This document shows positions 1 to 22,916 of a stretch of DNA of 64,000 nt, one piece after another. Within the stretch, counting starts at the first letter, position 1. Every line of letters begins with the position of its first letter. The DNA is taken from positions 41,435,220-41,499,219 of the forward strand of contig OX387186.1 in assembly GCA_947561395.2 (NCBI GenBank), in the 5' to 3' direction. The notes beneath the pieces were generated by a model. The model searched no databases. It was not told the origin of the DNA and saw only the letters and a list, made by a program, of their open reading frames with translations. The translations under genes and the position numbers were made by a program. Source of the DNA: Buxus sempervirens. Taxonomy: Eukaryota; Streptophyta; Magnoliopsida; Buxales; Buxaceae.

Positions 1-128
1 GCTTTCCCAAGCTGAGCTACATGTGTGTAGACACCCCAAATTGCACAGTAAAAATGAAGAATAATTGGCAAAAATCACTATTTCCTTTAAAACCATCACA
101 AAATTTGAGAAAAAGAGCTTTTTTCCTT

Positions 129-270
129 GTATCCGACAACTCAGGTCGGATACAAGCGTATTTCTTCGTATCTGATGGAAAATGCCGGATACAAGTAGCC
201 CTTAATGTATCCGGCAACATATGCCGGATAAATATAGGCGCTCGTGTATCCGACCTGATGTGTCGGATAC
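129..270 (+). promoter_or_regulatory. cluster of four short inverted repeats in the LTR
   Basis: Four hairpin-capable palindromes lie in a row: 129-153 (9-bp arms GTATCCGAC / GTCGGATAC, loop AACTCAG), about 168-192, 208-230 (arms TATCCGGCA / TGCCGGATA) and 246-270 (arms GTATCCGAC / GTCGGATAC). They sit 170-310 bp upstream of the LTR TATA box. Related clusters occur at 3895-4024, 15404-15545, 19926-19989 and in the 3' LTR (about 20597-20738). The core CCGAC is the same pentamer as the plant DRE/LTRE core bound by DREB/CBF factors, but the flanking base is T, not the preferred A or G. The regulatory role is inference from position and recurrence. Confidence 0.8.
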
Positions 271-436
271 ATAAGTTTTGCTCAAAATTAGGGTTTTCCG
301 AGAGTTTTCACCTTTTACCATCATATCCTTCATTAAAGGAGTAGAAATCTCGGAAATAGCCTTAGGGTTAAAGTTGGTGGGCTCTAGACATTAGTTTGTG
401 TCTACCATCTCACCAACCCTAACCCTAGCCTTTGCC

Positions 437-444
437 TATAAATA
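437..444 (+). promoter_or_regulatory. LTR TATA box
   Basis: TATAAATA lies in the context GCCTATAAATAGGAGG, just after a run of AACCCTA units that resembles a telo-box. The same box is kept in the 3' LTR at 20905-20912. Transcription of the element should start about 30 bp downstream. A GTAAGC donor-like site at 552 and a CAG acceptor after a pyrimidine-rich stretch at 5266, just before gag, would allow a spliced gag message. Confidence 0.8.
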
Positions 445-2274
445 GGAGGCTCCTCCTTAAGCAAATGGCCATTAACTCTTGTCAAGAACTTTTGCCAAGA
501 AGAGCTCCGAGTGAAGAGGGGAACCGCTGCGGAACTGCTTCCAGAACATAGGTAAGCCTCAAACCTCTATTTAATTTTCTGTTTTTACATTCTAGATCTA
601 GATCTCTTCTTCTACCTTTCTGTAGAATAAGGCCTATGATGTGTGTGAAAACCCTTCCCCTACTCAAAGTATCTCAAGACTCCCCCTAGCCGTAAAACGT
701 GAAGGCGGGATCTAGGAGAAACGAGACTGGGGATTGATCCTAGTGCTAGAACCTATTTGAATAAGCCTTTTGAATCTGTGAAGACCGTTCCATATTCAAA
801 GTACCCCAAGATTATCTTGAAGAACCGTGTTTAACGGGGAGAGAGAACTAAGGGAAACGATAATGGAATGGAACCCTAGGTTGTTTTTAGAACCCTATTT
901 TGATTGATATGAATGCATGCTATCGTTGCTATATTGTTGGAATGATTTTTACACTTACACATACATAGCACGTGATTTTGGTGGGATAGGCTCATATTTC
1001 GGATTTATTGTATTTATTATGATAAATCTGAAATAAATAGCCCCAAGCAATTCTGGGATGTTTGTAAATGATTTTCAAAGGATTTTGATTCTTCTTGCAC
1101 GGATTACACACACTTTATCACTGTTTTGAATTGGTTTTATTCAAAAATGGCTTAACTTGACAGCAACTGTACCCCTACTTCGGATACTCATAATTTCATC
1201 GTCCGGATGAATTTTGGAGTGATTCTAGAACCATAGGAAAGGTGAGGCTGTCTAGTTTATGCCTACTAAATTTCATTAATTTCTATCAGGCGGATTTTTG
1301 ACACCTCTCTGTCGAAGTTGATAGGTCAGTTCAGGTCTGAATACGGAACTTGTCACTTCGACTGAGCGCCATGTGTTCGTTTTAAGTCTGATTCGAGTGA
1401 TTATTGTTTCTGAGTTCTCCTTTATGAGTCTATTTTCAAATCCAGTTGGTTTCATAATTTTTTGACTCCATTTGTGTCGTGGGTAACAGATTTACTCAGA
1501 ACTATTCAACAGCACTTTTCTGGGTAAATCTGTGATCTTCGGGGCCTGTTCGGGAGATCACCCAAGGCACATCCGAATGAATTTTTGTATGAGGCTAGTT
1601 TCATTTAAAAGATGGCCATACAGACTTCACTCACACCAAATTTCGTGGATTTATATGAAGTCGATTTTTCTAAATGATTTTCCAAAGTTGCCTACTTATC
1701 ACTTTTAATTATCTCCAGCAGCAATTTTAAAAGAGGCATAACTCCTAGGATTTCAACCGGATTTAATTGAAATTTTGCTTGAGTCTTCTATCTATCATAA
1801 TCTTTCAAATGAATTTGGTTTGATTCAATTAAAATTGGATTTGAATGATTTCAAGACAAATGGTTCTTGCTTTTACCGAATTTTCCGGATTTGACTCAAC
1901 TTGGCTTTGTGCAATATTTGCTTTGATTTCCATTTATTGTTGATATTCCAGAAGTGATATTGACATAAAAGAGGATCTGGAATCCATTTGGATTTCTCAT
2001 GTGAAGATATCACACATTGGTTTAATTCTTTTCCAATGTTTTTAATGATTTTAGCAAGCTTTCTTACTTTTTTAGCATGAACAACACTTGGCAACCACTT
2101 TGTGTGGGTGAATGGGGGTGCCTAACACCTTCTCCCGTTCATATTCTAATCCCCTTACCCATCTCTGGATTTGATTTTCAAGTAGGGTTATTTTTACTCT
2201 AGAATTTGCCTTTTAGCTATTTTTGATTATTTTTGAATCTTTTGGTGTCCATTCACACCCAAAATACTGAATGG

Positions 2275-2292
2275 TGGCGACTCTCCCACATT
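2275..2292 (+). other. primer binding site (tRNA-Arg type), Tat group
   Basis: TGGCGACTC follows the LTR end almost directly. This primer site type is known from Ogre and other Tat elements and is usually ascribed to tRNA-Arg. Four other copies are in the window: 22743-22751 (+), 30640-30631 (-), 62487-62496 (+) and 63379-63370 (-). Each marks the inner edge of a Tat-type LTR. Confidence 0.75.
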
Positions 2293-4349
2293 TTGCGTTG
2301 AGCCCATGTGTTGACGGAGGGGAAATCATCCCGGTGATTTTTCCCATGTCTCACAATGTGGCTGCCGTCCTTGTCGGCGTGCCTACTTGTCTTCTAGAAG
2401 TTAAGTAGAGTGGCCTCTTGCCTCCCTGAGTATGATGTGTATCTTCAGTAGATAATTTTAGGCTTTTTCAAGCATGTTTCCTTGAATAAAACATTTCTTG
2501 TACCATACATTTAGGTGCTGTATTTTTAGGCTTTGATTTTGGGTATAAAACAATGTCACTTGAGCACAAAAATGAAGAATCCAAAACCTAGAAATTTAGT
2601 GTAGTTCTGGGGAATTGTTAAGCATGTTTTACCTAATTAAAACACTTTTTGGACCATATTGTTAGTTGCTGAAGTTTAGGCATCAATTTGGAGTATAAAC
2701 AAGACACTTTAAGCATGAAAATGAGACCATAAAACCTAGAATTTGGTAGAGGTTTTGAGGGGTTTTTCAAGCATGTTCCCCGGTTAAAAGCTTCTTGTAC
2801 AATGCATATAGTTGCTGAATTTTAAGGCTCCAATTTGGGTAAAAATAATGCACTTTTGAGCATGAAAAAAGAGCATGAAATCTGGAAATTTAGGGGATGT
2901 TTTGAATTTTATAAGCATGCTTTCATGAGCTAATGGTGATTTGTGCAATATAATGCCATGCTTGTATACTACTTTTTGGGCATGTAATACTTGTGTGCAT
3001 ATTTAGTTGCTTTGGCTGTCTTGCTTGCTTATGTTTTGCTTCTAATATGATTGTCATATGCCTTGGCTTGGAATTGTATGCATGGCTACGAAAAAGAGTG
3101 GCAAGGGGCTGGGACGTTGTGAATGTACCTCAAAATTTTAAATGCACTTGAGTACTTTAAACTATTTGCACAACCTACCCATCACCTATAGGAAGTTGAA
3201 CCCGAATGTGTGTAGCTTGGCGCACCGAGGTCGTTACTTCGGAAAGCGAAAGTGAAAACATTCATCTTAGAATTTGAGTCAATGATGTGATGACAATGGG
3301 ATCTGTGATTCGATTCCGGGCATCACTAGACGTGAGTGCTAAGTTGCCAATTAAGCCAAAACCCAAAAATCATACGCTTGAAGGTGGAGAAACATGTTTT
3401 CAGCTAAAAGTACACAATTGCGTTTGGGGAATTGGGTGTAAATGTTGGAAGGCCGTTTGCATGTTTCACAGGCCAAGGTATAATACCATATTGAAGGTAA
3501 TACAAGGTGGCAAGGTAAAGCCATGTTCTTTTTTATTATTTTCATGTAAATTAAAAGCCATGGTGTCCATATGCTTGGGATGAAATTTTTCCCAAAAATG
3601 TATATAGCCTAAGGTTGGTGTAACCTATAGGATGAGTTTCCAACTCAATTTAATAGTCATCCTACCCAAAGTCCATGTAGGAGGCAACCAAGTGTACAAA
3701 AATACAAGAATTGGTGCATAACTTTGGAGGGACAAGTACCCTCATGAATTTGTGAATTTTGCAAGAATGATGTCAAAGCCCAATTTGGGGCAAGTTTTAA
3801 AGGCCAAGTCAAGGTAAACATTAAGTGGGAATGAAAATAACATAATTTGGTGAAAAAATGAGTCAAAAAGGGCAATTTCGGCATTAACCGACAACTCAGG
3901 TCGGTAAAACAATGTCTTCTTCTTATCTGACATATTTCGTCGGTTACAAAAGGTTATGCTTGTATCCGATCTTTTGTATCGGATACAATAAGACATAGCC
4001 TTAGCCGACATTTCATATCGGATAAATGCAGAAAATGTGCAAATTGGTTTTTCAGCCCAAATTTTTGGAATAAAATGCCTAAAACACTATGGACAATCTT
4101 TAGGCACCCCAAAAAGAATATAAAAATGTTTCAAAAAAATAAAAAATAAAAATAAAAAATAAATACAACAAAAAATAATAAAAAAAAAACAAAAACCAAA
4201 AAAAATTCTTTCAAGGTTTAACCTAATTTTGAAACTCAAAGAGGGAACCAAGGTGTCATATTTTTTGATACCAATTCAATTTAACATGATTCTATCAAGC
4301 TTTTGAACTGGAAAACTGAGAAAATTCAGCAAAAAAAAAAAAAAAAAAA
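2293..4349 (+). other. untranslated leader of the large Tat element, first part
   Basis: No convincing coding sequence is visible. Between about 2450 and 2950 a loosely repeated block of 110-130 bp recurs about four times; each block has AAGCATG, a C/T-rich AAAACNTTTCTTG part, GTTGCTGNATTTTAGG and a GAGCATGAAA end. A degraded inverted-repeat cluster lies at 3895-4024. The part 4120-4200 is A-rich. The 98-aa and shorter open frames here look like chance frames. Confidence 0.6.
3895..4024. promoter_or_regulatory. inverted-repeat cluster in the leader
   Basis: Four palindromes are visible: CCGACAACTCAGGTCGG at the left (identical core and loop to the first hairpin of the LTR), a worn one near 3924-3946, GTATCCGATCTTTTGTATCGGATAC-type arms near 3962-3985, and CCGACATTTCATATCGG near 4005-4021. 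Order and spacing match the LTR cluster, so the two are related by descent. There is no clear TATA box close by on either strand, unlike the other clusters. Confidence 0.7.
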
Positions 4350-5109
4350 GAAACCTTTGGTTGGTTATTTTTATCAATCAAATCAAAACATTTGTGGGAC
4401 ACTTGGAGGCCCTAGAATACTCCAAGAAACCTTTGGTTGGTTATTTTTATCAATCAAATGAAAACATTTGTGGGACACTTGAAAGCCATAGAATATTCCA
4501 AGAAACCTTTGATTGGTTATTTTTATCAATCAAATCAAAACATTTGTGGGACACTTGGAAGCCCTAGAATATTCCAAGAAACCTTTGGTTGGTTATTTTT
4601 ATCAATCAAATCAAAACATTTGTGGGACACTTGGAAGCCCTAGAATACTCCAAGAAACCTTTGGTTGGTTATTTTTATCAATCAAATCAAAACATTTCTG
4701 CGACACTTGGAGGCTCTAGAATACTCCAAGAAACCTTTGGTTGGTTATTTTTATCAATCAAATCAAAACATTTGTGGGACACTTGGAAGCCCTAGAATAT
4801 TCCAAGAAACCTTTGGTTGGTTATTTTTATCAATCAAATCAAAACATTTGTCGGATACTTGGAAGCCCTAGAATATTCCAAGAAACCTTTGGTTGGATAT
4901 TTTTTTTAATCAAATCAAAACATTTGTGGGACACTTGGAAGCCCTAGAATATTCCAAGAAACCTTTGGTTGGTTACTTTTATCAATCAAATCAAAACATT
5001 TGTGGGACACTTGGAAGCCCTAGAATATTCCAAAAAACCTTCAGTTTGTTATTTTTATCAATCAAATCAAAACATTTGTGGGACACTTGGAAGCCCTAAA
5101 ATATTCCAA
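4350..5109 (+). repeat. 76-bp minisatellite, ten copies, in the element leader
   Basis: Ten head-to-tail copies of 76 bp, each starting near GAAACCTTTGGTTGG and ending at TTCCAA, begin at about 4350, 4426, 4502 and so on. Copies differ by only a few bases each, so the array expanded recently. Because 76 is not a multiple of three and the unit has few stops, every copy yields a 68-codon open frame. These are shadows, not genes. A-rich stretches flank the array. Such leader repeats are common in long Tat elements. Confidence 0.93.
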
Positions 5110-5266
5110 CAAAAAAAAAAAGCAAAAACAAAAAAATAAATAAAAAAAACAAGGAAAAAAAAAATAAATCTGGACTTGTGTTCACCTAACCTACTTGTCT
5201 ACATTTATAGGGGTGTGACCCAAGTTAAATGGAAGCTGACATGTTTCTTTGATTTTCCTTCTCCAG

Positions 5267-6511
5267 GTACACTTATTTGCAATCATTGCTCCCGTGACCA
5301 GATCCAAAGCCCGAGCAATGAATACTGAAGAGAACCAAGCTCAAGCCACCGTACCCGCTCAAGACTTTGCTCAGCTACAAGAGCAAGTGGCCGGTCTGGC
5401 CAAAATGCTGGGGGACTTACTGGCGGCTCAGGCCCAACAGGCCCAGGCCCAAAATCAAGCATCGACTTCCCACCAAGCACCGCCACCTCAAGCCTACATT
5501 CCGCCTCCCACTCAACCCATGCCTGAGCCAATTTTTGAACCGGTTCCTGAACCTATCTTGATCATAGAAAACACTGTGGAATCTGAGAGAGAAATGGAGA
5601 AGGAAAAAGCCAGAGAGGAGATGGAAAGAAAACTCCTGCACAAGATAGAGAGGATCCAGGAAGAACTTAAGGAGGTGAAGGGGGGAAACTGCTATGGAGG
5701 TACCATCTTCGATGATCTCTACATGTACCCGGATGTATGCCTGCCGGCCAAGTTCAGGTGCCCAGACTTTGACAAATATGATGGCACAGGCTGCCCTATA
5801 AGCCACTTGAAACTATACTGCGGGGCCCTATGCCAGTTTGGCCGGGATGACAGCATACTGATCCAACTCTTTCAGAGGAGCTTGACAGGGTCAGCCTTAA
5901 GGTGGTTTGCCACGCTGGACCACGGAAGGATCAGAAGGTGGAAGGACCTAGCCGACACCTTCTTAGACCAGTACAAATTCAACTCTGAGATCGTGCCAAA
6001 CCGGTACGACATGATGAGGATGAGCAAGGGGAAAGAGGAGTCTGTAAGGCAGTATGCCAAGAGATGGAGAGACGCTGCCTCCTAGGTTAGGCTGCTTATG
6101 CTGGAACCCAAGATGATATCAACGTTTGTGGGCACACCGGGGTAGCCCTTCTACAACCACCTGGTGGGTCAGATCACCACCAATTTTGCAGCCCTGGTAC
6201 AGGTGGCAGACCGGATCGAGGAAGGGGTCAGGTCAGGAAGGCTCATTGACTACTCTACTTTGATTGGGCAGTCTGATTCCTCCGCTTCCCTGGCACAGAA
6301 GAAAGGGGCTGGATTCAAAAAGACCGGGGCCAGAAAAGAAGGAGAAGTGAACCTGGTCCAGGCTCCTCTCGCCAAGAAACCGCTCCATGTGAACATCTCT
6401 GCACCCCAGCAGACCCAACACTCATATCAGACCCCACTCAATGTCAACTTCTCCCCCTTCGTGCCTACAAACCCGAGGAGGACTTTTACTAAGGAAGAGA
6501 GGGAGGCCTGA
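5267..6511 (+). pseudogene. gag region of the large Tat element (fossil)
   Basis: The first start codon in good context is at 5318, just after a candidate splice acceptor (5265-5266). The N-terminal part is Gln/Ala/Pro-rich with a charged helical stretch. It is followed by a retrotransposon gag (capsid) domain with the usual FxCPDFDKYDGTGxP entry, a WF motif and a QYAxRWRD-type end. Gag forms the particle that packs the element's RNA. The region is broken in this copy. Downstream is a C-x2-H-x5-GH-x4-C zinc-knuckle-like motif near 6657-6705, as is usual for Tat gag. Confidence 0.85.
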
Positions 6512-7689
6512 TTAGCAGCAAGAAGGAACAGAGTTTTCACGCCTCTCCCGGTATCTCTTTCCCAACTGCTACCAACCCTGCTGAAAGGGGAATATGTAAC
6601 TTTGAAGGAACCAAGCCCGAATGCCACAAATGGGAGGAATTTCAATTCGGCAGTCACTTGTGACTTCCACATGGGTGCACCGGGGCACTCTACAGATGCT
6701 TGCTGGGTTCTGAAGCACGCGGTCCAGGATCTGTTGGATCAGAAGGCCTTGGTTTTCAACACTGCTGCACCTGCCCCGTCGGGGAATGATATTGGGCAAA
6801 ACCCTCTGCCTTACCATAATGGGGCAGGCCCGTCCAACTCTATCACTGCAATATCCACCATGAGAAGGGCCTTTGACCCATCTCAACTTATAGCTCCCGT
6901 GGGGACCTCGGTCAAGGTCTACTTCTTCCAAGAGAAAGAAGAAGAGGAGGTCAATATGGTCTCCCAGAAAAATGATAATACCGCTGAGGACATTAGCTCC
7001 TCTCCGAACTGGGTCTCTTCTCTTATGGCCCAAATAAATATTGCAAGGCCTCCATTGGTCTTTAATTGTGGGTCACCCACCTGCTCTTCAGCCAAACCAC
7101 CAAAAGCTCCCTTGGTCATCAACCTGGACCCTACCACTGCATCTATCACCTCTTCAATTCCATCAGCCACATCTGGGTCCAAACTCCAACCCATGGTGGT
7201 AAACATTCCAGCTTCCTACAGTATCCCTAGACCGGCCCGTACATCCTGGTCCAAACTCCAGCAGTTGGTGGTCAACGTCCCTATACTAGCCTATTCTGAG
7301 GCAGCTGTACCATGGAATTACAGCGAGGGGGTCACGGTTACGGTTCCAGTGGTCCGAAACCAAAACCAGGAGGAGGTGAACCTCATGATGAGGTCGGGAA
7401 AATGCGTAGGAGTGGAGAAAGGAAAAGAAACAGAGGTGGAGAGAGAGAGAAAAGAAACTGAAGAAAAGAGAAAATCAAAAGGAAAAACAAAAGTGGGAGA
7501 AGACACCCCCCAGGGTGCAGAAAATGAGGCATCAGACCTTATAAAGATAATAAAAAAGAGTGAATTCAATCTTGTGGATCAGCTGAACAAAGTCCCGGCC
7601 CAGATTTCAATACTGGGTCTTTTGCTAAATTCTGAAAAGCACAGGGACGCATTGTTTAGGGTGCTACAGAGTGCACATGTATCCCAGAC

Positions 7690-8390
7690 AATTGATCCAG
7701 ACCAGCTAGGCAAAATGGTTGGTCAAATCTTGTCACATAATGTGATAAGTTTCTCCGAAGGTGAGATAAGCCCAGGTGGGTGTTATCATGTTGACCCTTT
7801 GCACATCACAGTGCTTTGTAAGGGCAGCATGATCGCACGGGTTTTAATTGACAACGGGTCGGTGTTAAACGTCTGCCCGTTAATCACTTTTGTCAAGCTT
7901 GGTCTAGATCAGTCGAAGATTAAGCAAAATGGGAGGATAGTGAGGGCTTTTAACAGCTCTAAGACACACTCCCTAGGGGAGATTGAACTGCCGGTCACAA
8001 TCGGACCGAATATCTTCAACATCACATTTGAGGTGATGGATATACCCGCAGCCTTCAATCTGCTCCTAGGAAGGCTGTGGATACACTCGGCTAGGGCAAT
8101 ACCATCCACGCTCCACCAAAGGGTGAAATACATAAGAGGGCAAAGGGTGATAACAGTCCTAGCTGAGAACTTGGTGCCTCCCATTGTGTCACCTGATGTA
8201 CCCTTAATAAATGTGGATTTGATTGTTGACAAGATTGCATTCCACTCGTTTCAGTTTGAGATGGTCAATTTCATACCTGGGGGGTGTGAAAAAAGAGAAA
8301 ATAAGGGGACAACCGCAGAGAAAATGGTAAGGAAAGTGATGGAGAAATACCACTTTCACCCAGGAAAAGGCCTGGGAATAAATTTGTAGG
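7690..8390 (+). pseudogene. aspartic protease region with G-patch-like end (fossil)
   Basis: The retropepsin active-site loop reads DNGS (about 7850-7861) in the context VLIDNGSVLNVCP, typical of plant Ty3/gypsy proteases, and is followed by an LLLGRLWIH motif. Next comes a glycine-rich HPGKGLG stretch that resembles the G-patch found after the protease of several Tat and other elements. The protease would cut the Gag-Pol polyprotein. A Pro/Gly-rich linker follows to about 9390. In Ogre relatives the step from protease to RT is bridged by splicing; the sequence here cannot prove that. Confidence 0.85.
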
Positions 8391-9399
8391 GAATAGTGGA
8401 ACCCATCAAGGCCAAGAAGCTGGTCCCTAAAGTAGGACTGGGGTTTAAACCCCGAGGATGGAGGAGAATGAAGCATGAAGAAGGAGATAAAAGAAGTAAA
8501 GGAAAAATCCCTCATCTAAGGGAGAATTTTCCAAGACCCTCTTGCATAATCCAACTATCTCCTCCTATGGACCAATCCAAGCCTCCCTACCGTAATATCA
8601 ACCCATACCAAAAGCCTTCTGTTCCGACCCTGCAACCCTATAACCCATCTCCTATGCTTGGAACACTGGGCGGGCCTGGGCCACAGCCTGAGCAGCAGGT
8701 GGATTTCTTCGAAGATGTCGGTGCATTCTTCGCCATGACTGAAGGCGAAAAGACAGTTGGTGATAAGGAGCTGCCGTTCATTGACTGGGCAGCAGTGAAA
8801 ATCCCAGAGGAGGTCATATCTGGACTGGGCCCCATAGCAGAAAAGGGTAGTACCCACCCAGTGATGATGGCATCGGATTCTGGGTTTGAGGGGCAGGCTT
8901 GCACAATTTCCCCTGCTCCCAAAAATCTTGTATTAAACATTTGGGAGGAAACTCCCCTTACCTTTGAAGCAGTGTTTGTTTGGCAAATTGACGCGGCTTC
9001 CAAAAAAAAAAACTCCAATAGTGGAATGCCATTTCCTTGAAGGTTCTAATGAGCCTTCGTCATCAGGGGAATTATATTAAGAAGGCTCACAAAAAACCCA
9101 AAAAGATTTTTCTATTTTTTCTAGAAAATTTAATTTTTTCAAAAAGGTCCAAACCGCTTATGAACCATATAATCAGACCGAATTAGACCAGGTTGAATAT
9201 GACTTTGACTTCGAGCTCGACTTTGACCTCATAGGGATCGAAGAAGAAGATGTTCCAAAAGAAATTGAATATCAATTGGAACATCATGAAAAGGGGGTCC
9301 AACCTAATATCGAGGAGACCATTGCAATAAATCTTGGGACCGAAGATGACCCAAAAATAGTGAAAATTGGGGCATGCCTATCTGATGTGTAGCAAAATA

Positions 9400-10450
9400 A
9401 AATGTCATGGTTTTTGGCAGACTACAAAGATGTATTCGCTTGGTCGTATCGAGACATGCCGGGGTTGGACACTGACATGGTGGTGCACAAGTTGCCAATT
9501 TTGCCAAGGGTTAAGCCAATCAAGCAGAAGCTAAGAAGATTGAAACCTGAATGGACTTTGAAGGTCAAGGACGAAGTGGTCAAGCAATTCCAAGCAGGAT
9601 TTCTAGCAGTCTCTACGTACCCCGAGTGGCTCGCAAACATAGTGCCGATACCAAAGAAGGACGGGAAAGTTAGAATGTGTGTGGACTACAGAGATCTGAT
9701 TAAGGCAAGCCTAAAGGATGATTTTCCACTTCCACACATTGACATTCTGGTCGATAATACTGCGGTACATAGCCTATTCTCTTTCATGGATGGTTTCTCT
9801 GGATACAATCAGATCAAAATGGCTAAGGAAAATCAAGAGAAAACAGCTTTCATCACGCCCTGGGGCACATTCCACTATATAGTCATGCCATTTGGGCTTA
9901 AAAACGCTGGGGCAACATACCAGCGGGCCATGACCGCACTATTCCATGACATGATCCATAAGGAGATGGAGGTTTACGTGGACGATATGATTGCCAAATC
10001 ATGCAAAGAAGATGACCACTTGATTAATTTGAAAAAGGTGTTTGATCGTCTTAGGAAGTACAGTCTACGGCTTAACCCGACTAAATGTGTCTTTGGGGCT
10101 ACATCAGGGAAGTTGCTGGGATTTATTGTAAGCCGAAGAGGAATTGAAATTGACCCGGCTAAAGCCAAGGCCATAATTGAAATGCCATCACCCAGAACAG
10201 AGAAGGAGGTTAGGGGCTTTCTTGGAAGAATTCAATATATAAGCCGGTTTATAGCACAACTCACTGCTATCTGTGAACCAATTTTCAAACTTCTGAGGAA
10301 GGATAACCCGACGGTCTGGAATGAGGATTGCCAGCAGGCATTTGACACAATAAAGAAGTATTTGCTGAACCCACCTGTGCTAGTGCCACCAACTCCAGGA
10401 AGACCACTGATCCTGTACTTGTCAGTGTTGGAAACATCAATGGGATGTGT
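9400..10450 (+). pseudogene. reverse transcriptase domain (fossil)
   Basis: The ordered RT motifs of Ty3/gypsy are all readable: VRMCVDYRDL, the FSFMDGFSGYNQI block, TAFITPWGTFHY, MPFGLKNAGATYQRAM, the catalytic YVDD box (near 9976-9987), and the LGFIVSRRGIEIDP and GFLGRIQYISRFI motifs. This domain copies the element RNA into DNA, primed by the tRNA at the primer site. The best-kept parts match the Tat clade pattern. Confidence 0.95.
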
Positions 10451-10539
10451 CTTGGGGTAGCATGATGAGACTGGTAGAAAAGAAAGGGCAATTTACTATC
10501 TGAGTAAAAAATTCACAGAATATGAGGCAAAGTACTCAT

Positions 10540-11240
10540 CGTTGGAAAAGACTTGTTGTGCTCTAGTGTGGGCAACTCAGAGGCTAAGGCATTACTTCCT
10601 TAGTCACTCCACATTATTGATATCCCGGATGGACCCTCTGAAATATTTATTTGAGAAACCGGCACTGACTGGCAGAACGGCAAAATGGCAACTACTACTA
10701 TCCAAGTTTGACCTCACGTACAACACTCAAAAGGCGATCAAGGGGCAAGCCATTGCTGACCACCTGGCTGCACATCCTTTACCAGAATACCAACCTTTGA
10801 AGACCAACTTTCCTGATGAGGCAATTCTGTTTACTGAAGAAGAGGAAAGTGAAAGTTCTTGGAAAATGTTTTTCGATGGGGCCGCCAACATGAATGGAAA
10901 TGGAATAGGGGCAGTTTTGGTCAAGCCAGATGGGTCCTACATCCCAATCGCAGTGAAGCTAAGATTCCAGTGCACCAATAATATTACAGAGTATGAAGCA
11001 TATATAATTGGGTTGCAAGCCGCCATAGATCATGAAGTGGAGGAACTTGACATATACGGAGATTCGAGTCTTATCATCTTCCAAACAACTGGTGAATGGA
11101 AAACCAAGGATCACAAATTGATCCCATATCACCAGTATTTGGAAGAAATAAGCACAAATTTTACTCGAATTTCCTTTAACTATATGCCGAGGGCCAAGAA
11201 TCAGTTCGCGGATGCTCTAGCAACATTGGCTTCAATGGTC
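10540..11240 (+). pseudogene. RT-linked RNase H remnant plus archaeal-type RNase H (fossil)
   Basis: The first part (about 10540-10770) is the RT-linked RNase H, which in Tat elements is worn and partly inactive. The second (about 10860-11240) has the archaeal-type RNase H pattern, with a FDGAANMNGNG-like first acidic motif, NNITEYEAYIIGL, YGDSSLII and a final RAKNQFADALATLAS motif. The extra domain is a defining trait of the Tat lineage and is thought to be a later gain of RNase H from a host-like source. Confidence 0.9.
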
Positions 11241-11399
11241 AGCATGCCAAAAGGGGTAGACATCAAACCGCTGGAAATTGAGGTCAGAGATGAGCCGGCT
11301 TATTGTTTCGTTCTAGAGGGAGCACCCGAAGAAGAAGCACCATGGTTTCAAGATATCAAAAATTTCTTGAACAATCGGAAGTTGCCAGAAAATGCCACT

Positions 11400-12590
11400 T
11401 CTATAGAGAAAAGGACAATACAGAGACTAGCCGGTCAATTCCTACTAAGTGGTGGACACTTGTACAAGAGATCACATAATGACATCCTGCTCAGGTGTGT
11501 TGCTAAGGCTGAGTCAGAAAGGTTGATTGAGACCGTACATGGAGGAGTTTGTGGACCCCATATGAACGGACACATGCTGGCAAAGAAGATCCTGCGGTTG
11601 GGATACTACTGTTCGACCATGGAGCATGATTGCTATATAAATGTCAGGAGGTGTCACCAATGTCTGATATATGCAGATAATAAGCACGCACCCACAAGTG
11701 AGTTGCACAACATGACATCACCATGGCCCTTCTCCATGTGGGGCATAGATGTCATTGGCATGATTTCACCTAAGGCTTCGAACGGGCACAGATTCATCCT
11801 AGTGGCAATCGATTATTTCACTAAGTGGGTTGAAGTGGCTTCGTATGCAAATAGCACAAGCAATCATGTTATTAAATTTTTGAAGCACAATATCATTTGT
11901 CGCTATGGACTGCCAAGTGCCATAGTATCAGACAACGCTTCAAATATCAAAAACAAGGACATGAAGAAGATGTGTGTGCAGTTTCAGATCACCCACCACA
12001 AGTCAGCTCCATATAGGTCAAAGATGAATGGGGCAGTAGAAGCAGCAAACAAGAAAATAAAGAAAATCATTTAAAAAATTGTAGTCAGTTACAAGGATTG
12101 GCATGAAATGCTACCACTTGCTCTACATGCCTACAGAACCTCAATCCGAACTTCAACAGGGGTAACCCCATATTCCCTAGTCTATGGAATGGAAGCAGTC
12201 TTGCCAGTGGAAGTAGAAATCCCATCACTCAGAGTGCTCATGGAGGCTGAATTAGAAGAAGCTGAATGGATACGGTTAAGAAATGATCAACTCAACCTAA
12301 TAGAAGAGAAGCGTTTGAAGGCACTTTGTCATGGCCAGTTGTACCAGAGGAGAATGGCCCGGGCCTACAATAAGAAAGTGAAGCCTAGAACTTTCCAAGA
12401 AGGAAACCTAGTTCTAAAGAAAATTCTACCATTTTTGGAAGATCCTCGTGGTAAGTTTAAGCCAAATTGGGAAGGGCCGTATGTCATCAAGAAGGTCCTG
12501 TCAGGGGGTACACTCATCTTGACAGAAATGGATGGATCAGATTTTCCTGAGCCAATTAACTCTGATGCAGTAAAAAGGTATTTTCCTTGA
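11400..12590 (+). pseudogene. integrase region (fossil)
   Basis: An HHCC zinc-binding part is followed by the catalytic core with the DVIG, VSDNA and GAVEAANK motifs, that is, the D, D and E positions of the DDE triad. The C-terminal part has the GVTPYSLVYGMEAVLPVE stretch and the GPYVIKKVL motif seen in most plant Ty3/gypsy integrases. There is no chromodomain, as expected for Tat. Integrase inserts the DNA copy into the host genome. Confidence 0.92.
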
Positions 12591-13720
12591 TTGAACATTT
12601 TTTTATTCCCTTCAAAATTTTAATCCCTAGTCTAGCCAAGTTGAGCCGGTTCGTTTCTTTGATAAACCTAAACTGGACTTGCAATAGGGCAAAACAAATT
12701 GGGGCAAGGCCAATTGAGGCAAAAATAAAGAGATAAGAAAAAAAAGCAAAGAAAAATGGTAAATGAAAGCCAAGTGTGAAAAAAGATGAAAAGAATGCAA
12801 ATTGGGAAAAAAAAGGGTTAAATTCATCATGACTGTAAGTCCGGTTGACCTATTTCCCCATTTGAAAAATTTTGAGCCTTAAAACCTTTTCTTTCATAAA
12901 CCGAGCCTAACCTTTGTTTCGTCCTAGTTCTAAGCCCTCAGTGATCTTAGAATGTTCATTCAAATTTCAGAGTGAGATTAGTGATGACGGAATACAGAAG
13001 TCGGCCCTAGTGAAAACCGTAACTGGCGCTAGGGGCAATATTGGCAAGAAGAAAAAAAAGAATAAAAAGGAAAAATCAGTGGTTGAGTTGATCATAGAGA
13101 TCCAAGCTTGAAGAGAAATCAGCACAAGTACTGAGACTGAGCAGATTGGGTAATACGGTCACTTCTGGAAGAAAAAGGCATTTGGGGATGACTCTAAAGG
13201 TCCTAAGATAGACAGATCTGATCACTCCTTATTACTTGGATTACCCTTTTCATTATTTTAACTTGGTTTTAATTCCTTTAATTATGGGTGATTAAGTGCA
13301 TGGACCAAATTTCAAAAAAAAAAAATAATAATAAAATAAAAAATTATAAAAAAGAAAAACTATACTTTGGCCAGTGATGATAAATCAAATACTTTTCATA
13401 AAACCTTTGTTTTTACAAGCATTTGAGCATTCTGAGGCCAATAATATTAAAAATTTATTTTTGAATTAAATCCTTTGTCTTTCCACTATTGGAGTTTGCT
13501 TTCGTACAAAGGTATGAAAAAAAAAGAAAATAAAAAATAAGCAGGAAATAAGGCTAGTCTCTGTCTCCTAGCAGCTCCTCAAGCTCCCGAATCCGAGCTG
13601 CCTGAGCTGCAATAACTCCAGAAGCCCCCTCTGCAGCGGGATCACTCAAGAAGGAAATGACCTCATCTGAAAGGGTCTGTCTAATCCGCATGCTCCTAAG
13701 GCTGACTAAAGCATCCTGGT
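12591..13720. other. spacer between integrase and the antisense genes
   Basis: No supported gene. The stretch is A-rich, with runs at 12720-12820, 13308-13360 and 13515-13545. A short plus-strand open frame around 12914-13111 ends in a lysine-rich tail and is probably chance. The region may hold the shared 3' ends of the sense gag-pol transcript and the antisense gene at 13725-15274. Confidence 0.5.
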
Positions 13721-13724
13721 ACTT

Positions 13725-15274
13725 CTACCGTATCATCTGAACCTCAAAACGGTAGGCCTGCATCTGCTCCTCAAGTTGCTTTTCCATAGCAAGACGGCGG
13801 GATACCTGCTCTGCAAGTTGCCTCTCCATATCAAGGCCCCGTATCCTAAGCTCCTGGGCCTCTCGTACCCATATCTGCTGAAGTCGCTTGTGAGAAGCTC
13901 TCTCAGACTCCAGGATGTCTTCATAAGTAGGAGCCAAAACCGCAGGAGGATCTTCAGGTACTGGGGCCTGACTCTGTATCTGCTCCTTGATCCAGAAAAG
14001 ATAGTCCTTCACATGGGACTCTGAGAAGACAGGGCCCCGCATAAAGCGAACATAGGACCACTCTCTCATCAACCAAGCATTCAGCTTCATGGTAGCTGGT
14101 GAAAGTGGCCCAAGATGGTCCTCGTACCCACTTGGGATTATGATGCCCTGGGTTGCTTTGAACTGACGAAGAACCCGCAAAGGGAGGTAAAGCACAGCAT
14201 GTCTCAAGCTAGCCAGAACCAAAAAGTTGCGGTCTCGGAAGCTAATCACAGTCTCTGCATTGAGCTGATAAGTACCAGGCCACCTCACTTGATCATCCTG
14301 GAGTGTAGCCAAGAAAGTAACCAGCCCTGCTTACCCCCTGGAATGTCAGGACACCTCCGGTTGCTCATCAAGATGGGAACTTTCAAGCTTGGGAAGAAGT
14401 GTCGATTGATCTGCTCAATTTGACTCAGATGGTCAAGTAGCCAAAGCTACAAAGAAGGAAGGGTGTTTCAATATATTTTAAAGCGAAAAGAAAAAAAACA
14501 AGCAAGGAAAAAAGAAAGAAAAAATAGCAAAAAAAGAAAAAAAGAAAGAGAAAATTTTTACCTGCAGGATAGGGGCACATGACAGGAAGCGCTTTGTCTT
14601 GTCTTCCTATAGTAACAGTCAGTCAAAGCCTGATACATTTCCACCAAAATCATAGGAGCCAATCTCTCCAGCTCCCTAACCTGGCATACAACGGAGATAA
14701 GGGCCAAGTCTACCTCATCGTCATCCCGGGGGAAAAGCAGTTGGTTAACCACTATCAGGGTCAAGGCATTGAACCTGGCTTCCTTGTTCTCCCCCCTCAA
14801 GAGATTCTCAGTCAAAAAAGACTTGGACAAAGTCAAAAGGGTGTCAGAATCCCCTAAATCCTTCTTCCCTATACCCAGGAAAGTAGAAGCCTCCTTCTTG
14901 TAGCTGGGCCTAAGGGGTGGGTTCACTACCTTCTCATCAAATCTCAAGCCTAGGATAGTTTCCACCTCTTCAATGGTCGGGGTCATCTAATGGTTTCCAA
15001 AACGGAAACGGTTGAGGTCGGGTACCCAATGACCAATAATGGCTTCAATAATCTCCCACTTGAAGGGAATCTTTGGGATAAGCAGAATGTAGCCTAGATG
15101 GGTGGAATCCCATATCCTCTCTTAATCAAGGGTCATAGAATTAACCCATCTAGTATAAAATGAATCCACAGGATTGTACCTAGTAAGGTTAGGGGGTTTT
15201 GATCTAAAAGGCTGTTTTGCAGGGGAGGCTGCGTGGACAGACAATGGCAAGGCAGAAGATGATCCGGAATCCAT
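13725..15274 (-). pseudogene. antisense passenger gene 1 of the Tat element (fossil)
   Basis: This reads opposite to gag-pol. The likely start is the ATG at 15274, about 110 bp after a minus-strand TATA box (15391-15385). It begins with a Ser/Ala-rich tail, then a block with a PTIEEVETILGLRFD motif and a block with DRNFLVLASLRHAVLYLPLRV. It ends in a charged coiled coil rich in Arg, Glu and Gln. The layout resembles proteins with the DUF7745 or PMD-like fold that ride in Tat elements as extra ORFs; I infer this from motif style only. A few breaks are present, and part of the reading is likely divided by introns. Function in the element is unknown. Confidence 0.6.
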
Positions 15275-15384
15275 TGGAGGCGATGGGAGCGAGCTAAGAA
15301 TCAATGGGAGGAGGAAAAAGGCGAAAAGGGGTTTTCTAAACTCAAAAACTCGTAAAAAAATACGCAAATCCCGAGGTTGGTTGC

Positions 15385-15391
15385 ATTTATA
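15385..15391 (-). promoter_or_regulatory. TATA box of antisense gene 1
   Basis: On the minus strand GCTATAAATGC lies 13 bp downstream of the inverted-repeat cluster (15545-15404) and about 110 bp upstream of the first likely start codon (15274). Position and sequence fit a core promoter for antisense gene 1. Confidence 0.65.
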
Positions 15392-15403
15392 GCATTTTTT
15401 AAT

Positions 15404-15545
15404 GTATCCGACAACTCAGGTCGGATACAAAAGATTCTATTCATATCCGATGAAGTATGCTGGATACAAAAGGGACCATGTGTATCTGGCATGTTATGCC
15501 GGATACAAAGAAATATCAATGTATCCGGTCTGATATGTCGGATAC
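15404..15545. promoter_or_regulatory. inverted-repeat cluster upstream of antisense gene 1
   Basis: Four palindromes match those of the LTR in order and spacing. The first (15404-15428) is identical in arms and loop to the LTR hairpin at 129-153. The others are near 15441-15467, 15480-15508 and 15521-15545. The cluster has the same plus-strand direction as in the LTR, yet here it serves a minus-strand TATA box. The palindromic arms would work either way round, like an enhancer. Confidence 0.75.
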
Positions 15546-15746
15546 AAAGAAAAAATGCAAAAAAAAAAAAAAGGGAAAATGGAGATAAATCCGAATTTTT
15601 TACCTGTTTCACCTGTGTACAAGTTATAATTGCATAAAAATGAGAAGGAAAAGAGAGCTAGACAAGAGAGAATAAATCAAAAGTTTTTTTATATATAAAC
15701 AAGCATTTTTGTACAATGATAAGGAAAAAATGAAAATCCTAATCTA

Positions 15747-18571
15747 CTACTGCTGTGCAGGATCACCCCTGCGTCCTCTACCACGCGCTCTGCGGCCTCT
15801 AACTTGAGGTGATCGGCGCCTAAAGTATGCCAGAATACGCTTGGCAACATGGCGAGGTAACCGACCCACAACAGACTGGATCTGATACTCCAAGCAATAC
15901 TCTGAGAGGTCTGGAGGCGGGTCAGGAGCAGAATCTGGGGAGGAAGCCTCAGGCTCAGCAGCAACTGGCTCAGCTGGACCCTCAGCCACAGTAGTCTCGA
16001 CTGCCGCAGCTCCAGAAGGCCCAGCAGTAGCAGAGGAGGGACCAGGAACAGAAGTATTTGGGTCAACAGAAAGGGTCAGAAGCAGAAGTATCAAGATAAA
16101 CCAAAGAGGGAAAATTAAAGAAAACTTACCAGGAATTTCTACAGCGGGAACTGGGGGATCTGGTTCAACCGGATCAGCAACAGGGATGTTCTCCGGCTCA
16201 TGAGCCACCACTGGAGATGAGGGGCCCACAGGGTCCACAGGAGTAGTAGCCTGAACCGAAGATGGATCAGGAACATTAGCCGAGGAATCATCAGGATCAG
16301 CAGCCCGAGCCGGAGATGGATCAGGTACAGGGAAATCAGGCTCAAAAGCAGCATCCTGATCTGGGACTGGGCCCTGCAAAAGTCAAACAAGCATATCAGA
16401 ATAGCAGAAACATGGAAATGAAAGAGATGAAATTATAAAGAAACCAGATACCTGTCTAGCCTAGAGCTCAGCAACCAGAGCCTCTAGCTCTCTGATCCGA
16501 GCATCCCTCTGGGCCACGACCGCGTCATGCTCTGCGATCATATCCTTGATCGCGACCCGCTGACTCTGGAACCGGCTCCGCACGGCATTCAACTCATGTA
16601 CCTACCAATAAGAACAGAATCAGAGTCAGAAATACAGGATCAAAGGAAATGGGATGAAAAATGAAAATCATGAAACTCACAGTGTCATCATGGACCTGGA
16701 TGTAGATCTCGCTGATCTCTGTCACTCAAGCACGAGTGGGTCGATCGAGCAAGCACCCAATGGATACTCTCTGGATCCACTCGTCGTAATCCCCAGCTAC
16801 TGTGAGCCCCTCCGCATCCTGAAAGTGATCAAACTAATCAACATCAAAACCCGGCAGGAGCGTGTTAGGACCCACAGGAGGAGGGGGAACGGGGATACGA
16901 AGTGTGCTTGTGTGCTGATAGTACAGGCGCTCTCCCAAATACATCACCCTACCAAGCCTCCCAAGGAAGCACTGGTAGGGCTAACGTCACCGATCTTTAT
17001 CAAAGGCGTCCTGTACTACCATCTCACGAGCCACCCCAATATCCACGTTGTCGAAGGGTGCCAGGATGAGCTGCAAAGAAGAAAAAATGGTCAGATACAG
17101 TCAAGGTACAGGAAAAGAAATAAAAGGAAAAAGGGCAAAGAATTTACATCGGATCATCGGGCATGGTCCAAGTGAACCCGAGCAGTGCGAGGCTGACTCC
17201 TATCAGCATCTCGGACCTGGGCCGACCACCGCAAAGCAACAGGGAACTCCGTGACACCAGGTACTGGGGATGGGCGGAAGAAAGTCATGTAGGTGTACAT
17301 AAACACCTGGCAAAAGAAAAATCAGTCAGAGATAAAGAAGATAAAGCCTAAGGAATAAGACAAGACATATGAATTTAATACCTGCAGAATCTGCCAGAAG
17401 AACCGGAAGCTAACTCCATCACCTCTCGGAGTAGCTAGGCCCCGAACTACTCGGCACAGCCCGGCCAAGATGGTCCCATATATGAGCCGACCCCATGCTA
17501 GCTGGCAGGTCTGATTGAGGTCTCTCAAAGCATCCAGAAAAAGAGGACTAACACTGGTCGTGTCCTCCTGGAAGAAGCAGCTCTCGAGCATCAGCAGAAA
17601 CATGTGCCGGAAGATAGGGAAGAAGGCTGCATCCTCCACGGTGATGGTCTCATGTCTCCCCTCATAATGTCGAGCGAGGCTCTCCCGCAGCCAACTAATG
17701 GAAATACGACTACTCCGCCCATCCCAAGTAGCAGGAGGCAGGTCCGGATATCCCAAGAGAAGACCGATATCCATCACTGAAGGCCGATCCAAAATGATAG
17801 TCCGCCCCATCAAAGGAATGCCGGTGATCCTCACAAAATCAGAGGGGCGGATCCCCAGCTCCACGTTCTGCAGATGGAATGATTGCGTCTCTGGAAAATA
17901 TCGCTCCATCATAGCGAAGATAAGGGGACGGTCGGCTCGGAATGAAGGGATGCTGAGGAAATAATCCAAGTGGCACCTCCCAAACTCACGCCAAAGTGCC
18001 GGGGAAAGCGACTGCGCCAACTCACTAAATCTCCCCCAACTGCCTCGCAGATGAGAAGGGGGATGTGGAAGAGGCACATCGGCCCTGATGCACATGGAGG
18101 GGTGGCTATCCAAACCACTGAGGAGCTCTGTATCATGAACAGACGCTCTCAGCTCCGCAGAGACCCCTAAGCGCAAGGCTACAGCAGCACCCTCCTGGCC
18201 TGAAGCTCCGGCTCGGCCTCGACCTCTCTCTCCAGCCCGGCCTCGGCCTCTCTCTCCAACTCGGCCTCGGCCCCTCTCACCAACTCTGCCTTCGCCTCTC
18301 TCTCGGCCTCTACCACGGCCTCGAACAGGATCAACCACAGGCTAAAAGCAAAAAAAATGAATAAATGAAGTCGGTTTCAAGGGAAGCAGGGAAACAAAGA
18401 AGAAAAAATTGGGAAGCCTACCTCAGCAGAGCCCTCGGCGGAGCTCTCTCTGGAAACATCTAATGGCTCCGACAGGGTGGCGCTAGAACTCGCCTTTGTC
18501 TGAGCCCGAGAAGTGGAGGGCTGATCAGCAGGGTCAGCCTCCTCTCGAACACGGGAACGACTCCTAGCCAT
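15747..18571 (-). pseudogene. antisense passenger gene 2, plant mobile domain (PMD) type (fossil)
   Basis: The gene reads minus from an ATG at 18571. After a short acidic/Ser-rich start there is a long Arg-Gly repeat (RGRG type, about 18330-18195). Next is a block that looks like the plant mobile domain (formerly aminotransferase-like domain): LWREFGRCHLDYF, ETQSFHLQNVELGIRPSDF and GIPLMGRTI motifs, about 18100-17390. Further blocks to the left carry a W-rich stretch, a coiled coil (about 16600-16460), a Pro/Asp/Val-rich repeat (about 16380-16130) and a basic RGRRARGRGRR end. Several splice-like junctions are visible and a handful of breaks exist. PMD proteins are known both as host genes (MAIN/MAIL1) and as cargo of Ty3/gypsy elements. 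Confidence 0.7.
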
Positions 18572-18589
18572 CTACAAGCCACAGGGAAG

Positions 18590-19900
18590 TATTTTATGAA
18601 TTTCAGTTCACATTTATCAGGAATCTTACCTTGCTCTTAATCTAGGTTTCAGTTCAAATTTATATTACCTTGCTTTTAGCCTAGGTTTCGGTTCATCGGG
18701 AATCTCACAGGACTTTTTCAAGTTATTATGAATTGTGTTCTAAGGGAATTTGCATTTATTTTTGTTCTCTGTTTTTGTTCAAGATTTTTATTTCTATTTT
18801 GGTTTTACAGCTTCTTGTCCTAAGAATATGTACAAAGCTTAAAATCTGCTAATTGATTTCAGGACTGCTACATGAAGACGGGACAATAACACCAAAGCAA
18901 AGGGCCTTAGCTGATCAAAAATCAAAACAAACGATGGAGTCCAATAGCCGATCAGGGAAGGGTTTGGACAATTGGAGCACTACAGTGATCAGAAGTATAC
19001 TACCATCAAGGCGAATTGAGAAAACAAGGAATAAGTCACAACCTTTGAAGATGAGCATTTGAAATTGTGTTTCCTCAAAACATTAGAAATACATTTCCAG
19101 TCAAAGGGAAAATTGCAGCGTGGTATAAGAATCAGAATTCCAGTCAAGGAAAATTGTAGCGTGGTATAAGAGCCAGAATTCCAGTCAAGGGAAAATTGCA
19201 TGGTATGAGAATCAGAATTCAAGAAAAATTACAGCATGGTATTAGTAGCATATCATTCGAAAAAACATGCAATTTGGCCTCCACTGACAGACAGCTCAAG
19301 AATTGGCAGGTTCAATGTGGAAGACAAAGCAAATGGCAAGACAAAAGAAGGGAACAACATGGTATTCAATACAAACAGAAATTCCCCACCGGCAGAAATT
19401 CCAATCAATACAAGCAGAGCATTGCAATTCAAAAAAAATGTGCTTTCAATTTCAGCAAGAATAGGCAAGTGTTTACAAAGACCCAATCCAACCAACAATC
19501 ATGGCATGATATACATTTAGAACATGGCCATTTGATGGGAAGCTATAAAAAATTTTTTTCTGTTTGATTGGGTCGAGTAAGCACTCACTTGTTGAATGGG
19601 GAAACAAGCACCTGATTGCAAGCGGGTAAGTCGAATTGGTGAAGAGCAAGTCGCCGAGGAAATCACCGAAGCAAAGGTGACGGTGTTGAACTGAGAAATC
19701 GCCAAAAATCGGAGAAGATGAGCTAGGGCTTGATCGCTGCCGTGAATGGGCGATCAGGAGAATGACGCCGGAGTTAGCACTACTCGCCGAAGTCAATAGA
19801 GGTTCGCTGGAGCTCAAGGAGTCGTCGGGGACGAAGGAGAACAAGGTGTGTATCTGGCGTGAGCAAGCGGAGAAGAAGAAAAGAAGAGGAGAAGTCGCGG
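18590..19900. other. leader region of antisense gene 2, with short repeats
   Basis: No supported coding sequence. It lies between the minus-strand promoter at 19911-19922 and the first PMD start codon (18571), so it would be a long untranslated leader or first intron. A degenerate 38-43 bp repeat fills 19095-19250. The plus-strand open frames at 18853-19567 look like chance frames through that repeat. Confidence 0.5.
19095..19250. repeat. degenerate tandem repeat, about 42 bp, four copies
   Basis: Four units share TTCCAGTCAAGG, AAAATTGCAG, GTGGTATAAGA and ATCAGAA parts, starting near 19095, 19138, 19180 and 19218. The unit length drifts from 43 to 38 bp, which suggests an older array than the 76-bp one in the leader. 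Confidence 0.8.
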
Positions 19901-19910
19901 TCGCGCGTGA

Positions 19911-19922
19911 CTTATATAAATA
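19911..19922 (-). promoter_or_regulatory. TATA box of antisense gene 2
   Basis: On the minus strand TATTTATATAAG lies 4 bp downstream of the inverted-repeat pair at 19989-19926. It would drive the antisense PMD gene that begins at 18571 after a long leader. Confidence 0.6.
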
Positions 19923-19925
19923 AGA

Positions 19926-19989
19926 GTATCCAACAAAGCATGTCGGATACAAAGAGAGCCCTCCTTATCCGACGTGTCACGTCGGATAA
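19926..19989. promoter_or_regulatory. inverted-repeat pair upstream of antisense gene 2
   Basis: There are two palindromes: 19926-19950 (GTATCC...GTCGGATAC, slightly worn) and 19965-19989 (TTATCCGAC / GTCGGATAA, nearly perfect, with a GTGTCAC loop). They belong to the same family as the LTR cluster but number two instead of four. They lie directly upstream of the minus-strand TATA box. Confidence 0.75.
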
Positions 19990-20115
19990 AAAAGGAAAAA
20001 CAGAAAAAAAAGAAAAAAAAAAGGGGGAAAAAAGAGAAAAAAAAAAAGAAAAAAAAAGAAAAAAAGAAAAAGAAAAAAGAAATAGCAAGAAATATGCTCC
20101 AAAGTCTGCTGTTTT

Positions 20116-22739: not shown

Positions 22740-22916
22740 TGGTGGCGACTCTCCCACATTTTGCGTTGAGCCCGTGTGTTGACGGAGGGGAAATCATCGC
22801 GGTGATTTTTCCCATGTATCACAATGTGGCTGCCGTCCTTGTCGGTGAGCTTACTTGTCTTCTAGAAGTTAAGTAGAGTGGCCTCTTGCCCCCCTGAGTA
22901 TGATGTGTATCTTCAT
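22740..22916 (+). mobile_element. cut-off second leader copy after the 3' LTR
   Basis: The bases after the 3' LTR repeat the element's own primer site (22743-22751) and the first 165 bp of its leader (compare 2275-2447) with a few percent differences. The match ends abruptly at 22916, where a reverse-strand gag element begins. This is the start of a second internal region, as in tandem LTR-internal-LTR-internal arrays made by unequal recombination. The rest has been lost. Confidence 0.75.

Follow-up and report, generated by a model that had tools for sequence, protein, structure and literature searches.

Palindrome arrays of the Ogre-like element

The window considered in this work is a 64,000-nucleotide stretch of the genome of Buxus sempervirens (contig OX387186.1 of assembly GCA_947561395.2, positions 41,435,220 to 41,499,219), and it contains an Ogre-like long terminal repeat (LTR) retrotransposon in which two antisense genes, referred to as AS1 and AS2, are placed between pol and the 3' LTR (Table 1; all positions are those of the window). 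In an earlier note on this DNA, a 22.7-kb element with five clusters of short palindromes was described, and this description holds with small changes in extent, as the element is bounded by LTRs and measures 22.9 kb by alignment of these, and all five clusters are present, the one in the leader being slightly wider (3884-4025 vs. 3895-4024). The palindrome unit is 25 bp long and consists of a 9-bp arm, a 7-bp loop and a second 9-bp arm (consensus GTATCCGRC-N7-GYCGGATAC), and in all five clusters the start-to-start distance between successive palindromes is exactly 39 bp. Four such units are present in the LTR, four in the leader, four in the AS1 module and two in the AS2 module. As had been noted, the first loop is AACTCAG in three clusters (LTR, leader and 15404), and the common ancestry of the modules proposed on this account is supported. 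When scored over the 18 arm positions, 17 of the 18 palindromes reach 14-18 and one reaches 13, whereas no score exceeded 13 when 64 kb were simulated five times with a first-order Markov model. Three more matches, at 13-14, turned up when the whole window was scanned in this way (14612, 19850 and 36275).

Table 1. Coordinates of the palindrome arrays, TATA boxes, antisense genes and other parts of the Ogre-like element in the window.
Feature	Position	Strand	Details
5' LTR (U3) array	129..270		starts 129/168/207/246
Leader array	3884..4025		starts 3884/3923/3962/4001
AS1 promoter array	15404..15545		starts 15404/15443/15482/15521
AS2 promoter array	19926..19989		starts 19926/19965
3' LTR array	20597..20738		starts 20597/20636/20675/20714
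LTR TATA box	437..444	+	TATAAATA, 166 bp beyond array
AS1 TATAAA	15386..15391	-	12 bp beyond array
AS2 TATATA	19913..19918	-	7 bp beyond array
AS1 first exon, DUF7745 / plant mobile domain (PMD)	14558..15274	-	PF24924 9.8e-11 for 14561-14986
AS1 downstream exon (C-terminal part), putative	13725..14330	-	open frame; dN/dS median 0.17
AS2 main exon, PMD, Arg/Gly-rich N-terminus	17322..18341	-	PF10536 2.2e-11; dN/dS median 0.13
Ogre-like element	26-22915	+	22.9 kb, LTR to LTR
5' LTR	26..2447	+	97.07% identity to 20494-22915 across 2,422 bp; ends TG...CA
3' LTR	20494..22915	+	97.07% identity to 5' LTR
gag region, two open stretches	5240..6511	+	Retrotrans_gag PF03732 3.4e-08 within 5240-6085
pol: reverse transcriptase (RT), RNase H, second RNase H (aRH), integrase	9393..12590	+	PF00078, PF17917, PF13456, PF00665, in this order

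The arrays are highly abundant in the genome, which measures 676 Mb. An exact match to the core TATCCGRC-N7-GYCGGATA is found at 15,271 places, and one to its reversed control at none. If the arm pairs are allowed any gap from 0 to 30, then 15,433 are found (reversed control, 15), and the 7-bp gap accounts for 15,271, or 98.95%, of these. Arm pairs facing outward with gaps of 0-30 number 8,192 (reversed control, 8), and among the matches listed of these the gap is 16 bp, which corresponds to the 39-bp period, in 49 of 50 distinct places and 18 in the remaining one; the places inspected for the core, gap and period counts are the first ones listed. All 20 of the 9.9-kb regions sampled (18 separate places) hold Ogre-like sequence of type 1 or type 2. 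Nineteen of these regions surround the first listed palindromes and one (L021) is an adjoining stretch, all of them in the initial 7.7 Mb of contig 1, and a sample from a single contig tells little of other parts of the genome.

A second Ogre-like family carries the same array. Its first element, the one that was followed through to the 3' LTR, lies at about 5.92-5.94 Mb of contig 1 and has LTRs that are 99.4-99.6% identical (two alignment pieces), a naturally open frame of 2,136 aa spanning RT to integrase, and a gag region made up of two adjoining open stretches. In comparison with the window element, its RT is 77% and its gag 43% identical. No match to AS1 or AS2 was found at E 0.01 in L029 and L030, which represent this one element. 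In its LTR, TATATAAA comes 11 bp past the end of the array, and about 0.9 kb further on there is another array, which is more variable; an array 11-12 bp before a TATA box is also present in four more regions with this LTR type (L015, L019, L020 and L025). The core arms are identical at the promoters of both families, and only the downstream array of the second family varies in its outer arms. In that array (L014 6035-6176; also L010, L015, L017, L019, L020 and L025) the first palindrome is often altered in both outer arms (TGATCCG/CGGATCA), so that the half-site shifts and the symmetry stays.

Placement of the arrays relative to TATA boxes

The earlier note had placed the clusters upstream of TATA boxes, and this is borne out at position 437 for the LTR and on the minus strand at 15391-15386 (TATAAA) and 19918-19913 (TATATA). 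It had also proposed examining whether relatives retain the clusters at the antisense genes, which they do in most or all cases. Protein similarity was the sole criterion for collecting AS1 loci, and six of the seven carried three or four palindromes with TATAAA 12 bp past the last one, and the seventh (L033) has LTR sequence in the place of the promoter. For AS2, all nine loci collected by protein similarity have at least two palindromes scoring at least 13; a TATA-like stretch comes next in all nine by eye, although it is degenerate in four, and a strict TATAWA is present in five of the nine, at 7-9 bp. Among all loci read, TATAWA was found within 45 bp on one side in 28 of 67 arrays (17 at 12 bp and 3 at 11), a count which pools related copies and palindromes chosen by score; in random 45-bp stretches it occurred in 717 of 20,000. 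Of the 18 leader copies aligned, 8 have TATAAA at 11-12 bp beyond the array, and from this spacing the leader array was considered as a possible promoter.

The 32 nucleotides past the array were also compared between the modules by shuffle tests (21 comparisons, uncorrected). These stretches are alike in AS1 and the second-family LTR, as 0 and 1 of 2,000 shuffles reached the observed score, and in AS1 and the leader (5 of 2,000, with a leader copy that has TATAAA). For the second-family LTR against the leader, the result depended upon the copy used (7 or 361 of 2,000), and the window LTR is weakly like the leader (21 of 2,000) and one second-family copy (16; the other copy, 627). Due to the likeness of the sequence past the array, the AS1 promoter and the second-family LTR promoter look like copies of one cassette. 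With AS2, judging from the same comparisons, the array is held in common and the core promoter is not clearly so.

Several other features were observed around the AS2 promoter. Past its TATA box, at 19894-19911 of the window, there is a GTCGCGCGCGACCGCGACT-like block holding a short palindrome, which is kept in L038-L046 (cut short in L042). A degenerate extra palindrome (score 13-14; window 19850-19874) is located 76 bp past the last good AS2 palindrome and beyond the TATA box in the window and in five of the nine copies (L038, L039, L040, L045 and L046; 77 bp in L046), as if the TATA box arose within a longer array. Directly upstream of the array, in the sense of the gene, lies a purine-rich (on the plus strand) low-complexity tract at 19988-20082.

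Constraint on the arms and history of the modules

Among 17 aligned U3 sequences, transversion divergence was 0.021 in the arms of the palindromes, 0.209 in the loops, 0.183 in the spacers and 0.102 elsewhere, and for 16 AS1 promoters the corresponding values were 0.012, 0.131, 0.115 and 0.043. In 18 leader copies they were 0.020, 0.056, 0.044 and 0.017. The arms thus show about 9-11 times fewer transversions than the loops and spacers in the LTR and AS1 modules and 2-3 times fewer in the leader, and the gap in overall divergence between arms and loops plus spacers was matched by 0 of 5,000 column permutations in both the U3 and the AS1 sets. Total divergence is less clear-cut than transversions, because the changes in the arms are mostly transitions: in U3 it is 0.135 for the arms and 0.188 for the surroundings, and it is higher in the loops (0.31) and spacers (0.39) than in the surroundings (0.19). 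Seven of the 16 AS1 sequences in this test (L002-L008) were picked by promoter similarity and carry no independent weight for the persistence of the promoter; the leader alignment includes the window, and 15 of its 18 copies were picked by similarity to the leader stretch of the window. Four palindromes at 39-bp steps are present in all 18 of these leader copies.

The loops and spacers also record the history of the modules. Their identity is 0.69-1.00 for the same module across copies, compared with 0.40-0.56 for different modules within one element, and as the modules are closer to their counterparts in other copies than to each other, their duplication must be old. Judged by these identities, duplication of the modules preceded the divergence of the copies sampled from the window's family, and each module has since been inherited in place. 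An ongoing homogenisation of the modules, which was also tested, is unsupported, the identity of modules within an element being lower than that between copies. Further, at the variable purine/pyrimidine (R/Y) position the left and right arms agree in 169 of 216 cases, where 111 are expected (strands mixed; related copies are pooled in this count and the palindromes were chosen by score), and symmetric recognition by a dimer would favour such matching.

Antisense genes AS1 and AS2

Both antisense genes code for proteins of the PMD superfamily. The frame of AS1 is interrupted in the window copy and open in L002, L007, L008 and L027; the open copy in L002 matches PF24924 (7.3e-18) and PF10536 (6.3e-12), both over the curated cut-off. 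Pairwise ratios of nonsynonymous to synonymous change (dN/dS) have a median of 0.11 for AS1 (10 copies, 45 pairs, range 0.03-0.44), 0.17 for its C-terminal exon (10 copies, 45 pairs, range 0.04-0.70) and 0.13 for AS2 (10 copies, 40 pairs, range 0.09-0.24). On these ratios the two genes are under purifying selection, and they encode proteins that work now or did so recently. Structure prediction for AS2 by AlphaFold2 from nine sequences was uninformative (predicted local distance difference test, pLDDT, 33.6), and AS2 has no match to a solved structure at E 1 or better; one weak match of AS1 to a solved structure (E 0.058) was not used. The TRP28 domain (PF04195) gave no Pfam match up to E 1 in the 10 stretches scanned, and DUF1985, the domain of VANC-type proteins, gave none among the proteins scanned.

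The presence of the array at every PMD locus was considered and is rejected, as three of three PMD loci outside these elements are without it. A region at C3:45636000-45645900 (L056) has two PMD open reading frames (ORFs), of 575 and 590 aa and about 3.4 kb apart, with no palindrome array. Such pairs of PMD ORFs recur, 12 being present among the 117 matches listed, several with equal score, and the paired unit has the appearance of another PMD element, or gene pair, of high copy number.

Other features of the element

In the product of 10461-12074, aRH is located between RNase H and integrase (PF17917 at 5-83, PF13456 at 138-256 and PF00665 at 423-520). This position of aRH, which is common to Ogre and Retand, is thus present in the window element, and the second family has the same order; the extra ORF with a PMD, also a feature of the Ogre clade, is present in the window's family and was not found in the one element read of the second. 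The leader upstream of gag contains a 76-bp tandem repeat in about 10 copies (4348-5113). No primer binding site was recognised by eye past 2447, where no tRNA comparison was made. There is no target site duplication, as the flanks ATGTG (21-25) and TACTT (22916-22920) differ. With its LTRs 97% identical, the window element is possibly a recombined copy, and since recombined copies are without the duplication, its absence in one copy says little about the family.

Interpretation and alternative explanations

The analysis establishes the geometry and abundance of the arrays, the constraint on their arms, their placement at TATA boxes, the old duplication of the modules and the selection on both antisense proteins. 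The explanation that we favour, with a probability of about 0.6, is that the modules are a promoter cassette whose array is read by a dimeric DNA-binding factor, either host-encoded or supplied in trans, and that sense and antisense transcription are coupled in this manner. The modules would be copies of one cassette, in which dyad-symmetric putative binding sites of 25 bp, one every 39 bp, stand beside a TATA box. A dimeric sequence-specific factor would sit on the array and promote transcription from the LTR and from both antisense genes, either by recruiting the transcription machinery or by keeping silent chromatin off, and the genomic RNA and the accessory PMD proteins may thus be made under the same conditions. 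Protein binding, activation and co-regulation are inferred here, and sense and antisense genes could be expressed together, as the earlier note had suggested. The fixed distance of 11-12 bp to the TATA box at AS1 and in the second-family LTR fits a promoter-proximal cassette. Further, a host protein or one supplied in trans is more likely than a factor that each family has evolved for itself, because two families with 43% identity in gag have the same arms, and the one element read of the second family yielded no antisense gene.

However, several observations weigh against this explanation. In the window's own LTR type, the distance between the array and TATAAA is 155-168 bp in 16 of 17 copies, and the leader array is without a TATA box in 10 of 18 copies, including the window, which has TGCAAA in its place. 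The 32 nucleotides past the AS1 array are unlike those of AS2 (497 and 571 of 2,000 shuffles) and of the window LTR (444 of 2,000). In the leader, the arms are no slower than the surrounding sequence in transversions (0.020 vs. 0.017), and in the AS1 promoters the overall divergence of arms and surroundings is similar (0.117 vs. 0.108). The agreement of the arms at the R/Y position could equally result from a mutational process that corrects palindromes. The distances to the TATA box also bear upon two claims of the earlier note. The arrays had been likened to an orientation-free enhancer, and this is unsupported as stated, as the distance is constant at AS1 and in the second-family LTR and of another order in the window's LTR type. 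The copying of one regulatory block, which had been placed within a single element, is upheld; however, its restriction to one element does not hold, since the array is present in two Ogre-like families.

The regulator could also be encoded by the element itself, with AS1 or AS2 binding the palindromes as an activator or anti-silencing factor, comparable to VANC or to Tas of foamy viruses, and families lacking these genes borrowing the protein. Both proteins are under purifying selection and stand behind arrays, the C-terminus of AS1 appears coiled-coil-like by eye, which would suit a dimer, and PMD proteins encoded by ordinary genes have roles in silencing and in gene expression (PMC7156037). 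However, the second-family element keeps its arrays, near-identical LTRs and an open pol with no AS1 or AS2 match found. Moreover, the targets of VANC differ among related elements (PMC5735166), whereas the arms here are the same across a gag identity of 43%. The three PMD loci outside these elements are without an array, and the fold prediction for AS2 was uninformative. An element-encoded regulator is considered unlikely. Slightly more doubtful is its most far-reaching form, a self-regulating circuit in which the antisense PMD proteins would bind the palindromes in the LTR, the leader and their own promoters and open the chromatin, the families without these genes living on the proteins of the first. 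If true, this circuit would be a case of trans-acting regulation by a plant LTR retrotransposon, and it would explain the presence of PMD genes in retroelements.

Three other explanations were weighed. The palindromes could act as hairpins in the genomic RNA, in packaging, dimerisation or stability, their position at promoters being incidental: every one of them could fold in RNA, and the arrays in the leader and downstream in the second family, some of the latter with symmetric arm changes, lie in sequence expected to be transcribed. However, in 161 palindromes read on the plus strand of the element (those of the LTR, AS1, AS2 and second-family LTR scoring at least 14, including three from the downstream array of the second family and an LTR array in L042), the 1,449 cells comprise 1,260 complementary, 68 G-U, 86 A-C and 35 other pairs, and among distinct palindromes of the downstream arrays G-U and A-C number 12 and 18 in the leader and 4 and 9 in the second family. 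The pairing statistics do not favour RNA hairpins, because an RNA stem should tolerate G-U and no excess of it over A-C is seen; a constant 39-bp pitch and a constant distance to the TATA box are also unexpected of hairpins, and we regard this explanation as very improbable. Hardly better placed is a host platform, in which a silencing or boundary factor reads the palindromes with no gain to the element. The arms do contain CCG and CG sites, and the leader copies that lack a TATA box would agree with it; yet harmful sites should get lost, whereas both families have retained the arms, and the arrays abut the TATA box at AS1, AS2 and the second-family LTR. An equally slight chance is given to the arrays having no function at all, the palindromes then being a repeat of satellite type, multiplied within elements through recombination and gene conversion. 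The faster change of loops and spacers than of the surrounding U3 is as in unstable repeats. However, conversion would equalise the modules of one element, which differ more among themselves than from their counterparts in other copies, and it would leave the nearly constant unit length and the resistance of the arms to transversions unaccounted for.

Under the favoured explanation of a cassette read by a host-encoded or in-trans factor, a rigid operator-like array would tie the main promoter of an Ogre-like element to the promoters of two antisense proteins under selection. The 25-bp palindrome provides a defined DNA bait, and its binder would be the candidate common regulator, whether host-encoded or the element's own. 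The role of PMD proteins in retroelements thereby becomes testable.

Comparison with known systems

Parts of this arrangement are already known. Ogre elements have extra ORFs with a PMD in 57% of cases (PMC6317226), clades of PMD proteins are carried by Gypsy elements (PMC5418596), gene23 of Grande is an antisense gene transcribed from its own promoter (PMC7264820), and in foamy viruses the LTR and an internal promoter are under shared control. The literature searched yielded no array of constant pitch standing before both the LTR promoter and the antisense promoters. Searches for palindromes with LTR or Ogre, for Ogre with PMD and promoter, and for DUF7745 yielded no description of such arrays in titles and the beginnings of abstracts, subscription papers being mostly uncovered, and among the papers listed for the four 9-mers of the arms none was judged relevant on the same basis. 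The 'DOWN' motif of MAIN/MAIL1 targets (CATGCAGTTT, MORC1 promoter; PMC9899485) was also considered, and by eye it does not match the palindromes.

With the Ogre-type Tat elements that carry a PMD ORF (PMC6317226), the window element shares the Ty3/gypsy polyprotein, the location of aRH between RNase H and integrase and the extra PMD ORFs. Palindrome arrays are unmentioned in the passages compared of that work, in which the word itself was not searched, whereas here two antisense genes of the PMD superfamily stand behind the same array. Grande, with gene23, and Retand and RIRE2, with their antisense ORFs, likewise have an accessory gene in antisense orientation in the interval from pol to the 3' LTR (PMC7264820, PMC11963269), and the function of such genes in plant LTR retrotransposons is described as an open question (PMC7264820). 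However, the antisense ORFs of Retand mostly encode TRP28, and neither a PMD nor a module common to the LTR and the antisense gene was met in the parts of these sources compared. In the window element an array and a TATA box are present at each antisense gene, and a promoter of its own is predicted for each. The VANDAL elements and their VANC proteins (PMC5735166, PMC10398659) are similar in having short motifs repeated in the noncoding parts of a plant transposon. They are, however, DNA transposons with a DUF1985 protein and with targets that vary between related elements, whereas the present arrays belong to an LTR element, have arms that are shared by two families, and consist of dyad-symmetric sites at constant pitch.

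The closest parallel in the logic of control is provided by Tas of foamy viruses (PMC8670036, PMC4929722), where one regulator serves both the LTR and an internal promoter. The occurrence of the same sites in the LTR and in internal promoters, which characterises such systems, is also found here, at the level of sequence. However, Tas is a viral protein reported to bind both promoters, whereas in the Buxus elements the binder is putative and the internal promoters that it would serve are antisense.

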